NCBI GenBank assembly: GCA_913054455.1
Contig: CAJXIL010000009.1
Span: 1 to 48,396 of the forward strand
Direction: 5' to 3'
DNA length: 48,396 bases
From: an uncultured Roseobacter sp.
GTDB lineage: Bacteria; Pseudomonadota; Alphaproteobacteria; Rhodobacterales; Rhodobacteraceae
Position numbers and translations under genes: made by a program. This document shows, in pieces, positions 17,627 to 45,381 of the stretch (position 1 is the first letter of the stretch; every line of letters begins with the position of its first letter). The notes beneath the pieces were generated by a model that made no database searches, was not told the DNA's origin, and saw nothing but the letters and a program-made list of their open reading frames with translations.

Positions 17627-19183
17627 TTATGAGCCGAGGTGAATATTGAACCGGCTGCGAATTTCTGCATCCAAGACAGGGTCAAAACGGGCAGATGATC
17701 GCTCTGACAGGATCTGCTCCTTACGTGCTGTCGCCTTTTCCAGCAGGTCTGGCTTGCCCAACTCGGCCCATTCCTTTGGTGAGGTGCGATCTCCCAGTGC
17801 TGGGTATACATAATCCGTCTGCATCCGAGACAGCGTCTGGCTGGTGCCCAAATAGTGGCCAGGTCCCCCGATGCAAACCTCAGCAATCTGGTCCAAGGCC
17901 AGGGTTTCATCATTGACCTCAATTCCACGCACACAACGCTGTGCCTGCCCAATAAGATCGTCGCCCAAGATCAGGGATTCATGGCAAAACCCTAGAAGTG
18001 AAGCATGCATGCCCGCGGCTTCATAGACCATGTTGAGGCCAGAGAGTCCTGCCATGACATTTGAACACATCTGCTCCCAGCCGGCTTGCATATCGGGCAT
18101 TTTGGAATCGCTGGCTCCGGCGGCAGCCCCGCCTGGTATGCCATAGAACTTGTGCATCTGGGCGCAGCCCGCCGTCAGGAGCGCCTGCTCGCCAGAACCC
18201 ATGGTCATCGCGCCTGTGCGCAGATCAAGACCAAAGGGCCAAGTCCCAACGATGGCTGGTGCTCCAGGTTTCACTGCGTTCACATAGACCAACCCAGCGA
18301 GGCACTCCGCAACGGCTTGGGTAATTGCCCCTGCAATGGTGGATGGTGCTGTAGCCCCGGCCATACCAGCCGAGAGCAACAGAACTGGCATGCCATGCAG
18401 GATGCATTGCTCCATGACCTCACAGCTTTCGGTGGCGAATTTCATCGGCGGCACAACAAAACAGTTGGAGTTGGAGACAAAGGGGCGTTCGCGCCATTTG
18501 TCTTCGCCCCCTGCAATCATATGCAGCATTTCAATGGCCGGCGCGACAAAACCCGGTTCGGAGAACGATACGCCGATATGCTTGGTCGTTCCGGAGGTGG
18601 TGGCATAGATCGAATTGAGATCCATCTCCATATTGTCGGCGATGTCCCGGCATACCATTGGGCGCTGCACAAAGTGGATATTATCAAGCCTATCGCAGAT
18701 GCGGGCGGCATCATGTAGATCCTGTACGGTCGACTCACGGTAATGACGCCCCTGCACATCAACCACATGGACTGCCGCGCCTGCCGTGCCGTAGTGGACG
18801 CGGTTGCCAGAGAGCTCCAGATCCTGTCGCCCATCACGGCTATGCAGCGTCACAGACCGGTTTACCTTGGTAAGCATGTCCTCGACCAGGGCGCGGGGGA
18901 AGCGGATGCGACCATCATCGCCTTGGATACAGCCCGCCTTTGTCAGATAGTCCACACCACTGGGGGGGGCATCCGCGAGGCCAATGGTTTCAAGCGCATC
19001 CAAGGCGGCGCGATGAATGCGTTCAACAGAGGCTTGGCTCAGCGGTTTTAGAACACCACCCTCCATGCCAGGGCGGATGGGACGCATGTGGTCGGGCAGG
19101 GCGCTGGCTCGGGCGGTTCGACGTGCGGCGCGGCCCCCGCTGCGTGTAGATGCGCGGGCGGGGCTGCCAGATTGATCTGTCAT
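17627..19183 (-). CDS. MttB-family trimethylamine methyltransferase, non-pyrrolysine
   Basis: A 518-residue cytoplasmic TIM-barrel methyltransferase of the MttB superfamily. The archaeal MttB uses pyrrolysine at an in-frame amber codon; this gene is continuous, so it belongs to the non-Pyl branch, which includes glycine betaine and other quaternary-amine methyltransferases feeding a corrinoid protein. Recognisable parts are VHYGTAGAAVHVVD, SNSNCFVVPPMKF, GSGEQALLTAGCAQM and ASDSKMPDMQAGWEQ, with CIGGPGHYLGTSQTL near the end. A low-complexity Arg/Ser/Ala N-terminus (about 40 residues) is not part of the fold. No corrinoid protein, reductive activator or methyl carrier gene lies in the window. 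It is a single gene. Confidence 0.9.
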   Translation of the reverse strand: MTDQSGSPARASTRSGGRAARRTARASALPDHMRPIRPGMEGGVLKPLSQASVERIHRAALDALETIGLADAPPSGVDYLTKAGCIQGDDGRIRFPRALVEDMLTKVNRSVTLHSRDGRQDLELSGNRVHYGTAGAAVHVVDVQGRHYRESTVQDLHDAARICDRLDNIHFVQRPMVCRDIADNMEMDLNSIYATTSGTTKHIGVSFSEPGFVAPAIEMLHMIAGGEDKWRERPFVSNSNCFVVPPMKFATESCEVMEQCILHGMPVLLLSAGMAGATAPSTIAGAITQAVAECLAGLVYVNAVKPGAPAIVGTWPFGLDLRTGAMTMGSGEQALLTAGCAQMHKFYGIPGGAAAGASDSKMPDMQAGWEQMCSNVMAGLSGLNMVYEAAGMHASLLGFCHESLILGDDLIGQAQRCVRGIEVNDETLALDQIAEVCIGGPGHYLGTSQTLSRMQTDYVYPALGDRTSPKEWAELGKPDLLEKATARKEQILSERSSARFDPVLDAEIRSRFNIHLGS

Positions 19184-42572: not shown

Positions 42573-43208
42573 TTATTGTTGTACGACATCCACAACGTTG
42601 TAGCCGGCGGTAAAGCCCTTCAGCGACATCTTCATTTCAACCAGCTGATCAGGCGCAGGAGCAGGGCGCAGTGACAGTGTGGCTTCGCCCCCTGCTTTGA
42701 AAGTGTCGATATCAGCCTGGGTCAGGCCAATCTGGGCGATGCAGCCAAGGGGGTTGCAGAAGGAATAGTTGTACCGTTTACCCGGCGCGCCATCGACAGA
42801 AATGGTCAGGGCGGCAGGCAGCAGGGTTTCCAAAGGCACAATAATGGTCGCACCGGCAACAGCCTGACCACCGGGCTGATCGATACGGAACAGAGAGACT
42901 TCAGCCATTGGATTGCCGTTTGGATCTGTCAGGATCTGTAGCAAAGAGCAGGGGTCGGTCTCGGCTTCGGTCATCACGCAGGCCAGATCCCAATCACCAT
43001 GGGTCTCTTTTGCATAGCGGTCGCCAAGCTTGGGCGTTCCATCGTCGACGGGTTGACCTAGATCCAAGATTTGATCCGCAGTTGGTTCGCTGGCTTGCGC
43101 GGTCTGTTCGGTCGTATCGGTCGCGGCTGTTCCGCTTTCCTGGGCTGACAAAGAGCTCGTCACCGCGATTAGGGCGGCTAGGGTCATTGGCGTAAGGGAC
43201 TTGATCAT
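42573..43208 (-). CDS. Invasion-associated locus B (IalB) family protein
   Basis: A 211-residue periplasmic protein named after IalB of Bartonella, although most alphaproteobacteria carry such proteins without being invasive. A signal peptide ends near SSLSAQES, followed by a Thr/Glu/Ala-rich linker of about 40 residues. The IalB domain begins about GDWDLACVM (near residue 71) and includes the family's paired cysteines (ACVMTE..DPCSLL, and NPLGCIAQIG). FKAGGEATLSL and SLKGFTAGYN end the domain. The promoter lies in the 628-base region upstream. Role unknown, probably envelope-related. Confidence 0.9.
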   Translation of the reverse strand: MIKSLTPMTLAALIAVTSSLSAQESGTAATDTTEQTAQASEPTADQILDLGQPVDDGTPKLGDRYAKETHGDWDLACVMTEAETDPCSLLQILTDPNGNPMAEVSLFRIDQPGGQAVAGATIIVPLETLLPAALTISVDGAPGKRYNYSFCNPLGCIAQIGLTQADIDTFKAGGEATLSLRPAPAPDQLVEMKMSLKGFTAGYNVVDVVQQ

Positions 43209-43616
43209 GAATGCCTCATTATTCTCAGGTCGTTTGCAAAGCCTTTACCATGTTGCAGCTGAGGTGTCAGGTCTCAATCCCTCACTCAATCAAGAATAGG
43301 CAAGGAATTGTAGGCAAATTTAATAACAAGTGAAGCGCTTGGAACAAAAGCAAAAAAGGAAGCTCTCCGGCCCCCTTTTTTGTGTAGTTCTCCCCGTCGG
43401 ACTGGCCGACTTAGTTATTGAGTAGGACGTTACGAAAGGCCTGTGCCTGGGTCAACATCCAATAGCAAAAAAATGTGACACTCGGCGACTTTACTTGATA
43501 TTTCTTCGTGGGCGGGCCGTGAAAGTGGCTTGTTTCCGGCGTGATCGACCGCTCAAGCGACCTGGCGACAGAAAATTAGCTGCGGTTTGAAGTGGCAAGA
43601 GCAAAAGTGCTCTGTG

Positions 43617-43711
43617 ACAAAAAAGGGCCGTGCCAAGGGCACGGCCAGTCTGACAGGGAGGAAATGCCCGCCGCGATCTCGATTAGAGAGGACGAGCATG
43701 ACATAGATCGC
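43617..43711 (-). ncRNA. Candidate small RNA with anti-Shine-Dalgarno motif
   Basis: On the minus strand a transcript of about 90 bases would run from near 43704 to the terminator at 43619-43646. It contains a 7-bp inverted repeat (GCGATCT/AGATCGC, 43673-43679 and 43705-43711), then an unpaired stretch with UUUCCUCCC (43664-43656), then the terminator hairpin. CU-rich single-stranded motifs of this sort are known in alphaproteobacterial small RNAs of the alpha-r14 and CcsR kinds. The first base of the repeat overlaps the proposed -10, so the exact 5' end is uncertain. It was not possible to test expression. Confidence 0.45.
43619..43646 (-). terminator. Strong orphan terminator on the minus strand
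   Basis: Stem GGCCGTGCC/GGCACGGCC (43638-43646 with 43626-43634) has a 3-base loop and is followed, after one C, by six T residues (43624-43619). On the minus strand no protein gene lies upstream of it before 43837, which is on the plus strand. It must therefore end an unannotated transcript. Confidence 0.8.
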
Positions 43712-43738
43712 ATATAAAAGTTAATAATGTGTTTTCAA
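43711..43738 (-). promoter_or_regulatory. Candidate promoter of the small RNA
   Basis: TTGAAA (43738-43733 on the minus strand) and TATATG (43716-43711) are separated by 16 bases. The spacer is AT-rich. It points toward the orphan terminator 70 bases away. Confidence 0.4.
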
Positions 43739-43742
43739 GGGA

Positions 43743-43777
43743 CCCTCCTAGGAGGGAGCAATCACCAATCGGTGATT
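43743..43777. promoter_or_regulatory. Two adjacent palindromes before the HerA-like gene
   Basis: CCCTCCTAGGAGGG at 43743-43756 is a perfect 14-bp palindrome. AATCACC-AATC-GGTGATT at 43760-43777 is a perfect 7-bp inverted repeat. They stand 60-94 bases before the start of the ATPase gene and directly upstream of the small-RNA promoter. They look like operator sites for one or both, with no candidate protein. Confidence 0.4.
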
Positions 43778-43836
43778 CCACACCTATCGTGGGCAGATAA
43801 TCTTTTGAGACAACGACTGGCGGGCAAAGGACGACC

Positions 43837-45381
43837 ATGACAAATAGGATTTTTATTGGCGGCGGCGGTGAAGGCTACAGTGAGCCTCAGGAAATGAGTT
43901 TCAAATACGCCAATCGCCACGGATTGATCGCCGGCGCGACAGGGACCGGTAAGACTGTTACCCTTCAAATTCTTGCTGAAAGTTTTTCCCAAGCCGGTGT
44001 TCCGGTGATCCTGGCAGATGTCAAAGGCGATCTTTCCGGGCTGGCAAAACCAGGCACGGCATCGCACAAGTTACATGATGCCTTTATGGGGCGGGCAGAA
44101 AAGATCGGGTTTGACACCTATCACTATCATAGCTGCCCGGTGACCTTTTGGGATCTGTTTGGCGAGCAAGGCCACCCGGTGCGCACCACGGTGGCGGAGA
44201 TGGGGCCTTTGCTATTGGCTCAATTGCTCGAGTTGAGTGAAGCCCAAGAGGGGATTTTGAACATCGCCTTCAGGCTTGCGGATGAGCAGGCCTTGCCCTT
44301 GTTGGACCTCAAAGATCTGCAGGCGCTGCTGGTCTGGATTGGCGAAAACCGTGGGGAACTGTCGCTGCGCTATGGCAATGTTTCTCCGGCCTCAGTGGGG
44401 GCGATCCAGAGGCGCCTATTGGTGCTGGAAAATCAGGGGGGGGCCGATCTGTTTGGCGAACCGGCGCTGGCGCTGAGCGATCTGATGCGACAGGACAGCG
44501 CCGGGCGCGGCATGGTCAATATCCTTGCCTCGGATAAATTGATGGCTGCGCCTAAGCTATATGCCACCTTCCTGCTCTGGCTATTGAGCGAGTTGTTTGA
44601 AGAGCTGCCTGAGGTTGGTGACCCGGACAAACCCCGTTTGGTGTTCTTTTTTGATGAGGCGCATCTTTTGTTTGACGATGCCCCCAAGGCCCTGGTTGAT
44701 AAAGTCGAGCAAGTGGCGCGATTGATCCGTTCCAAGGGCGTTGGCATCTATTTTATCACGCAAAACCCCGGTGATGTTCCTGAGGATATTTTGGGCCAGC
44801 TGGGCAATCGCATCCAACACGCGCTGCGCGCTTTCACAGCAAGAGATCGCAAGAACCTAAAACTGGCGGCTGAAACCTACCGCGAAAATCCGCGCTTTTC
44901 CACCGAGGACGCCATTCGTGAGGTGGGGGTAGGCGAGGCGGTGACCTCTATGCTGCAAAAGAAAGGCGTGCCCGGCATTGTGGAGCGCACCCTGATCCGT
45001 CCGCCCAGCAGCCAGTTGGGCCCGCTCAGCAAGGCCGAGCGCGCGCAGATGTTGCAGGCCTCTGATATGGCCGGGAAATACGACAAGCCCTTGGATCGCC
45101 ATTCAGCCTATGAGATCTTGCAAACCCGCGCCGCCAAGGCCGCAGAAGAGGCAGAAGCGGCAGAGACCAAGGCAGAAGAGGCATCGGAACCCATGGCGCG
45201 GGAGTTCAATGCAGCGCGACGGTTCTCTGGTTCGCGAATTCCGCGCTCGTCCGCGCGCAGGCATAGACCAAAAGATACCTTTGCCTCTGCCATGTCAGAA
45301 GCGGTGATCAAAGAATTGAAAGGCACCACAGGCCGACGTCTGGTGCGCGGAATTCTGGGTGGTTTGTTCAAAGGACGATAA
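43837..45381 (+). CDS. HerA-like ATPase, DUF853 (YjgR) family
   Basis: A 514-residue P-loop ATPase of the HerA/FtsK clan. The opening [10 protein letters not shown] and [13 protein letters not shown] (Walker A, about residues 30-42) are followed by [16 protein letters not shown] and Walker [15 protein letters not shown] (about 270). Later [18 protein letters not shown] and [15 protein letters not shown] complete the ATPase core. A Glu/Ala-rich linker (about 440-465) and a basic end follow. Its nuclease partner NurA, found with archaeal HerA, is absent. Members are of unknown function, usually thought to act on DNA. AAAGGACG precedes the ATG. Confidence 0.92.

Follow-up and report, generated by a model that had tools for sequence, protein, structure and literature searches.

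The small RNAs SorX and SorY have been studied as stress regulators in Rhodobacter. SorX is described as being cut from the 3' UTR of an OmpR-type gene and SorY as transcribed from a promoter of its own (PMC6238624), and mRNA targets are listed for both (PMC8307010). The alphaR8 sRNAs act with Hfq on the 5' regions of mRNAs through a 10-mer, UUUCCUCCCU, according to the account given in PMC12559287. That account also has SisA, of the alphaR8 family, acting on mRNAs via the same 10-mer, and its Caulobacter CrfA/SisA-D system is an example that a circuit of such sRNAs and a sponge exists. Here we analyze a locus between the genes herA and ialB in an uncultured Roseobacter sp. We consider it likely that this locus holds two sRNA genes with separate promoters and terminators, of which one (RNA1) acts in trans and the other (RNA2) is an anti-sRNA sponge.

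The window, i.e., the whole stretch of DNA analyzed, comprises 48,396 nucleotides of contig CAJXIL010000009.1 (GCA_913054455.1), and its features are collected in Table 1. The preliminary description had pointed out a canonical terminator on the minus strand with no gene upstream. The terminator is present as described, with a 9-bp stem, a loop of three, a C and six T, and the next gene on its upstream side is indeed the divergent herA. It was also stated that the neighbors give no other reason for a terminator, which holds upstream but not downstream, where ialB lies on the same strand with the RNA2 gene in between. At the level of sequence comparison, it is confirmed that the stray terminator closes a genuine small RNA gene of wide conservation. 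A chance terminator is ruled out by synteny and covariation, and a coding region is considered unlikely, as the short ORFs over RNA1 do not fit a many-indel alignment with compensating stems. On the herA side, between RNA1 and herA, the palindromes CCCTCCTAGGAGGG and ATCACCAATCGGTGAT are found at 43740-43779, a stretch poorly conserved within the genus (0.23-0.48).

Table 1. Features of the herA/ialB locus, in positions of the window.
Feature	Position	Strand	Evidence
herA-like ATPase gene, divergent, synteny anchor	43837-45381	+	Pfam PF05872 HerA_C, 741.8 bits
RNA1 promoter-like block	43704-43733	-	AACACA-like box, TTAACT 43719-43724, TGC-GATCTA 43704-43712; conservation in 74 loci
RNA1, alphaR8/SorX-like small RNA	43619-43703	-	R1 model, 109.9 bits, the window's own sequence being part of R1; 5' end predicted
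RNA1 hairpin 1	43664-43699	-	predicted fold; covariation
Unpaired 10-mer UUUCCUCCCU, anti-Shine-Dalgarno, alphaR8 core	43655-43664	-	sequence
RNA1 core CUCCCUGUCAGACUGGCCG	43642-43660	-	18/19 complementary to RNA2
RNA1 intrinsic terminator	43619-43646	-	stem 43626-43646, U run 43619-43624; 97.7% of cells paired in 84 sequences
RNA2 promoter	43427-43455	-	TTGACC 43450-43455, 17 bases, TAACGT 43427-43432
RNA2, candidate sponge RNA	43345-43420	-	R3 model, 68.1 bits at 43336-43430, the window's own sequence being part of R3; ends predicted
RNA2 hairpin GUCGG-CCAGU-CCGAC	43396-43410	-	99.1% of cells paired, 44 sequences
RNA2 antisense stretch CGGCCAGUCCGACGGGGAG	43390-43408	-	duplex with RNA1 core -38.0 kcal/mol, z -6.5
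RNA2 intrinsic terminator	43351-43382	-	two-sided changes in 6/8 pairs, 44 sequences
ialB (invasion-associated locus B family)	42573-43208	-	Pfam PF06776, 122.5 bits

Matches to RNA1 at DNA level were found in 25 of 60 relatives: all 12 from the genus, counting the own genome, 13 of 24 from other genera of the family and 0 of 24 from other families. The neighbors of these 25 loci include ialB in 24 and herA in 23. With one genome taken per genus, a covariance model built from 11 genus sequences (R1) had matches in 76 of 100 genomes of the family. herA was located in 84 of the 100, and in 53 of these 84 herA-bearing genera R1 matches in divergent orientation, 54-136 bases upstream of the aligned herA start. 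For the 31 herA genomes missed by R1, 30 were re-read (one stands at a contig end) and 16 of the 30 gave an R1 match in the right place with E <0.005; a further match (L163, E 0.0012), about 290 bases from herA and without ialB, was left out of the counts. Altogether 98 loci were examined with R1 and 84 matched, 11 of these being the model's own sequences. ialB was identified in 82 of these 84 loci.

The predicted fold of RNA1 (-34.3 kcal/mol, z -3.1) agrees with the earlier claim of an unpaired UUUCCUCCC between two inverted repeats, the order on the minus strand being hairpin 1, the free stretch UUUCCUCCCUGUCAGACU and the terminator. A covariance-model search of related genomes for conserved hairpins with compensatory changes had been suggested as a check, and it found them. 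Two-sided changes occur in 20 of 22 pairs among the 84 sequences, and all 13 pairs of hairpin 1 show them somewhere; this amounts to 252 cells compared to 67.5 in shuffled and 29-39 in slid controls, with the caveat that sequences were aligned by fit to the structure, a procedure that favours covariation. A MAFFT alignment of the genus only gave two-sided changes in 4 of 22 pairs. Without any fitting, the hairpin region had a mean z of -2.1, with 44 of 84 sequences below -2.

The promoter proposed for RNA1, TTGAAA/TATATG, is probably not the actual one. Both boxes are present on the minus strand (43733-43738 and 43711-43716) at a spacing of 16 bases, but they are unlisted by a consensus scanner and the conserved block differs. 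Over 74 loci the family consensus is ACAATACAAN[GC]TTAACCTTTNNNTGCCAGTNT, about 60-75 bases before the core, in rows anchored on TTAACC and ATACA, so that those columns are inflated. TGCCAGT, which was not an anchor, has 0.5-1.6 bits over the same 74 loci, and a count without anchoring finds TTAACC in 53 and TGCCAG in 33 of 84 upstream stretches. The promoter of RNA1 is probably this conserved ATACA-N4-TTAACC-...-TGC-NANNNT block, which is offset slightly from the overlapping TTGAAA/TATATG. We infer that TGC-NANNNT is an extended -10 box from the good conservation of its A and last T. TTAACC is among the best-kept elements upstream of RNA1 in the 74 family loci, and it may bind a regulator.

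RNA1 can be compared to three described sRNAs. SorX (RF02784, Rhodobacter sphaeroides) has the core CCUCCCUGU..GAC with a hairpin before and a terminator after it, as in RNA1, but has an OmpR-type neighbor and a 3' UTR origin, while RNA1 stands at the herA/ialB locus. MmgR/alphaR8 (RF00519, suhB) has the exact 10-mer, likewise between hairpin and terminator, but dinB/FGase neighbors. SorY (RF02651) shares the core and the terminator design; SorY-like loci (L177, L171), unlike the RNA1 locus, adjoin a LysR-type gene. RNA1 scores below the gathering cut-off of all three models, with 34.6 bits for SorX (cut-off 46.6), 31.7 for suhB/MmgR (41) and only 20.8 for SorY (111). Of the alphaR8 features, both the single-stranded UUUCCUCCCU after a hairpin and the rho-independent 3' terminator are present in RNA1, and the FGase neighbor is absent; for alphaR8/MmgR this neighbor is usual, not obligatory. 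Weak Rfam matches to anti-hemB, sX14 and Atu_C3 were taken as chance or shared design.

The described RNAs also occur in the same genomes at other loci. SorX is over its cut-off in 157 of 198 family genomes, the own genome has a SorX elsewhere, next to an OmpR-type gene (G000:C73, 91.9 bits), and an OmpR-type gene adjoins all of the 30 best-scoring SorX loci. Canonical alphaR8 is over its cut-off in 10 of 100 family genomes, and dinB and/or FGase adjoins in four of five such loci examined (L296-L299; not L300). Three genomes (G015, G026, G118) carry both an over-cut-off alphaR8 and the herA-linked RNA, and G072 carries SorX, a SorY-like RNA and RNA1. The possibility that RNA1 is SorX, SorY or canonical alphaR8 is thus ruled out by the sub-threshold scores together with this co-occurrence. 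Outside the family, the family model R2 matches 40 of 115 class genomes (two of the 40 are from the family). In the 19 outside-family loci examined (L301-L319), neither herA nor ialB is seen within about 1.5 kb; a LysR-type gene like that of the SorY-like loci is found in 11, FGase in 2 and none of the tested genes in 6. Among the loci examined, no herA-linked RNA1 line was found outside the family. Given the 11 LysR-linked matches of the 19, the SorY locus may be older and more widespread than its Rfam model (cut-off 111 bits) implies. RNA1 is thus a herA-linked line of one sRNA superfamily. The preliminary description of a small RNA with the alphaproteobacterial ribosome-blocking layout was right in type and motif, but the RNA has relatives in alphaR8, SorX and SorY, and a second RNA adjoins it.

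Further candidates were seen in this context. In the own genome, a terminator at G000:C27:25436-25503 (L065 1501-1568, minus strand) is preceded by UUUCCUCCCC and scores 29.7 bits for suhB; this element is possibly another anti-SD sRNA. P. denitrificans intergenic 134 or 60 (PMC5107571) could be relatives. Elsewhere in the window, the Rfam entry PYLIS_3 (pyrrolysine insertion sequence) matches 18016-18113 on the minus strand with 40.9 bits (cut-off 38), within an uninterrupted ORF of 518 codons (17627-19183) that is MttB-like by eye. The match is probably a non-pyrrolysine relative scored via coding similarity.

The conservation profile of 11 genus loci falls to 0.2 directly after the RNA1 terminator and has a second island of 0.8-1.0 at 43494-43345, well before ialB, with RNA2 itself at 0.9-1.0. 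The island contains, in order, TTGACC-17-TAACGT, a hairpin, GGGGAG and a terminator. We read it as a conserved, apparently undescribed small RNA gene on the same strand, between RNA1 and ialB. Rfam gives no match at RNA2 up to E 5. It is highly improbable that RNA1 is a mere attenuator in a long ialB leader, with no free sRNA, although ialB is on the strand of RNA1 in 82 of 82 loci. Against this stand the fall in conservation after the RNA1 terminator, the position of RNA2 with its own promoter-like site in between, and the relatives of RNA1 at unrelated loci with OmpR, LysR or dinB/FGase neighbors.

The predicted fold of RNA2 has -23.2 kcal/mol (z -2.0), and its hairpin shows little covariation because it is nearly invariant. 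TTGAC precedes RNA2 in all 72 family loci, compared to 4 of 72 after shuffling. A -10 box with at least 4 of the 6 letters of TAGCGT, taken as the best of spacers 16-19, is found in 70 of 72, with spacer 17 in 67, and a simple rule detects the terminator in 63 of 72. The SD-like AGGGAG of RNA2 might instead serve translation of a small peptide, as ATG, GTG or TTG follows the motif by 9-18 nt in 16 of 72 loci, compared to a mean of 8.3 after shuffling. This is hardly credible, however, as the start codon is absent in 56 of 72 and the sequence after the motif is the terminator stem.

RNA2 is present in 83 of 84 RNA1 loci, in 82 by pattern and in one (L147) by model, while L193 has RNA1 without RNA2. 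The model R3, built from 44 sequences, finds RNA2 in all 76 loci with the exact RNA1 pattern in named genomes, which overlap in part with the family set, on the same strand and 72-315 bases downstream. On the stretch examined, these loci have ialB in 75 and herA in 69 cases; a stricter RNA2 pattern recovers only 55 of the 76. R3 also matches 23 of 30 herA loci missed by strict R1, 11 of the 23 being within the R3 model. In 60 SorX, SorY, alphaR8 and class-level loci, R3 gave nothing above 14.7 bits. Among viral contigs, a 21-base RNA2 pattern matched once, and the contig concerned looks bacterial and carries ialB. In the window, R3 also matches 2793-2923 weakly on either strand (16.5-17.3 bits), which is probably a terminator hairpin.

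The sequence CGGCCAGUCCGACGGGGAG of RNA2 is complementary to CUCCCUGUCAGACUGGCCG of RNA1 at 18 of 19 positions, one G-U counted. When the best duplex of the RNA1 core with the downstream strand was compared to shuffles, z was below -3 in 72 and below -2 in 77 of 81 loci, four of which (L021, L184, L195, L202) had cores anchored on a wrong CCUC. The RNA1 seed is predicted to be open, with an opening cost of 0.6 kcal/mol. Opening the full 19-nt site would cost 15.3 kcal/mol in RNA1 and 7.8 in RNA2, and full pairing must therefore invade the terminator stem of RNA1. Folded together as two strands, RNA1 and RNA2 are predicted to be about 18 kcal/mol more stable than when folded apart.

The pairing partners appear to have changed together. 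Own partners reach -36.59 kcal/mol vs. -36.12 (sd 0.11) for swapped ones, with 3 of 10000 permutations for 80 pairs (L193, L147, L158 and L140 left out); the effect of 0.5 kcal/mol is small, relatedness was ignored and 43 of the 80 cores are identical. UUGCC in RNA1 and GGCAA in RNA2 occur together in L020, L024 and L216 (Fisher p 0.0009). The partner is missing in L148, L157 and L208, which have UUGCC only, and in L144, which has GGCAA only. The pairing also extends to the relatives of RNA1. A duplex of SorX with the RNA2 of its own genome is predicted in all 12 cases compared (-28.6 to -43.5 kcal/mol, z -3.2 to -6.3), these being the 12 of 30 SorX loci for which an RNA2 sequence was available. 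The own-genome SorX reaches -39.7 kcal/mol, and the SorY-like RNA of G072, a single genome, -38.6 kcal/mol. Canonical alphaR8 is weaker, with -25.2 and -26.1 kcal/mol in two genomes.

RNA2 is intact in five loci from five genera in which RNA1 is missing or, on visual inspection, decayed (L149, L152, L153, L156, L159). The genomes with a lost or decayed RNA1 (G018, G093, G129, G081, G092) still carry SorX-family matches, which points to RNA2 serving the whole group. The best reading, by analogy with Caulobacter CrfA acting on SisA-D, is that RNA2 is a sponge for the RNA1/SorX/SorY-like group. The pairing data are symmetric, and the retention of RNA2 where RNA1 is lost would also fit reversed roles, in which RNA2 is the regulator of mRNA targets of its own and is itself sponged by RNA1, SorX and SorY. 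We regard this as very unlikely, given that mRNA targets are among what PMC8307010 reports for SorX and SorY, and that SisA is described as acting on mRNAs through the same 10-mer (PMC12559287).

The main rival, and the chief doubt about RNA2 as a sponge, is a role in the leader of ialB, because ialB is the next gene downstream without a clear promoter of its own. RNA2 would then be the ialB 5' leader with a conditional terminator, and RNA1, SorX and SorY-like RNAs would bind its hairpin in trans and control ialB read-through or mRNA stability. Wherever ialB was found (82 of the 84 loci), it follows on the strand of the RNA genes, and it is also there in the five loci that have lost RNA1 or carry a decayed copy. 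After the RNA2 terminator there is no clear sigma-70 promoter in 81 loci (best score 6.47 vs. 6.04 shuffled). However, the antisense stretch stops short of the terminator stem, which pairing would thus leave unbroken, the gap from RNA2 to the aligned start of ialB is long (median 189 nt), and a promoter-like site, TTCACT-16-TACAAT, is present at 43334-43307 in the window. Overall, we judge the leader role unlikely and continue with RNA2 as a sponge.

Under the sponge reading, the unpaired UUUCCUCCCU of RNA1 would cover ribosome-binding sites of mRNAs, plausibly those of nutrient transporters. A target pattern of ACAGGGAGGA-N4-10-ATG had 20 matches in 12 genus genomes, compared to 1 for the reversed pattern, and 0 in the own genome. 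Sixteen of the 20 matches lead open frames of more than 100 codons (L331 is probably spurious), and 10 of the 16 encode transport proteins, or 7 of 13 after merging four copies of dctQ, with six proteins typed by Pfam and the others by eye. In a control SD pattern, 2 of 8 were transport proteins by eye, and the transporter excess is thus not convincing. dctQ was found in 8 of 12 genus genomes, the own copy being cut by the contig end. All 7 copies with the start seen retain the site AGGGAGGAA, as might be the case for any good SD.

RNA2 is predicted to pair by its CCAGU loop and the following AGGGAG/GGGGAG with the core CUCCCUGUNNGACU.GGCC common to RNA1, SorX and SorY-like RNAs. In the cell, such pairing would cover the sRNA seed and free the sRNA targets, and the paired RNAs might be degraded together. 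A complete duplex would also reach into the foot of the RNA1 terminator stem. An RNA2 that fits all three sRNAs would explain why their core CUCCCUGUNNGACU.GGCC extends beyond the anti-SD part. In the broadest form of this proposal, RNA2 would be a family-wide, unnamed master anti-sRNA of the Rhodobacteraceae that coevolves with RNA1, sequesters at least three anti-SD sRNAs (RNA1, SorX, SorY) and sets one common threshold over transport and stress genes, having arisen separately from CrfA. We consider the case for this broadest form evenly balanced. A common anti-sRNA would link the SorX, SorY and RNA1 regulons.

In the parts of the literature covered, which include sections of PMC12559287, PMC8307010, PMC3413700, PMC3927594 and PMC8844928, we found no sRNA at a herA/ialB locus and no SorX/SorY sponge or common antagonist; earlier detection of either RNA by RNA-seq is possible. 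HerA, IalB, DUF853 and "invasion associated" are absent from the main texts of PMC5107571, PMC4809877, PMC6238624 and PMC3688512. The R1 and R3 models can be used to annotate the pair in further genomes.

The closest known system is CrfA/SisA-D of Caulobacter crescentus, where, as far as PMC12559287 sets it out, an anti-SD group of alphaR8 type with UUUCCUCCCU is counteracted by a separate sRNA whose G/A-rich stretch pairs with the core. A similar arrangement is proposed here, and the likeness between RNA2 and CrfA lies in the predicted pairing and the proposed circuit. Complementarity to the sRNA seed, which characterizes CrfA, is found in RNA2, and a separate RNA2 transcript is predicted. 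Unlike CrfA, the candidate sponge RNA2 adjoins one of its sRNAs. Furthermore, its pairing spans about 19 nt and includes GACUGGCCG beyond the 10-mer, while it is weaker with canonical alphaR8. If RNA2 acts as proposed, it would show that sponging of alphaR8-type sRNAs reaches beyond Caulobacter.
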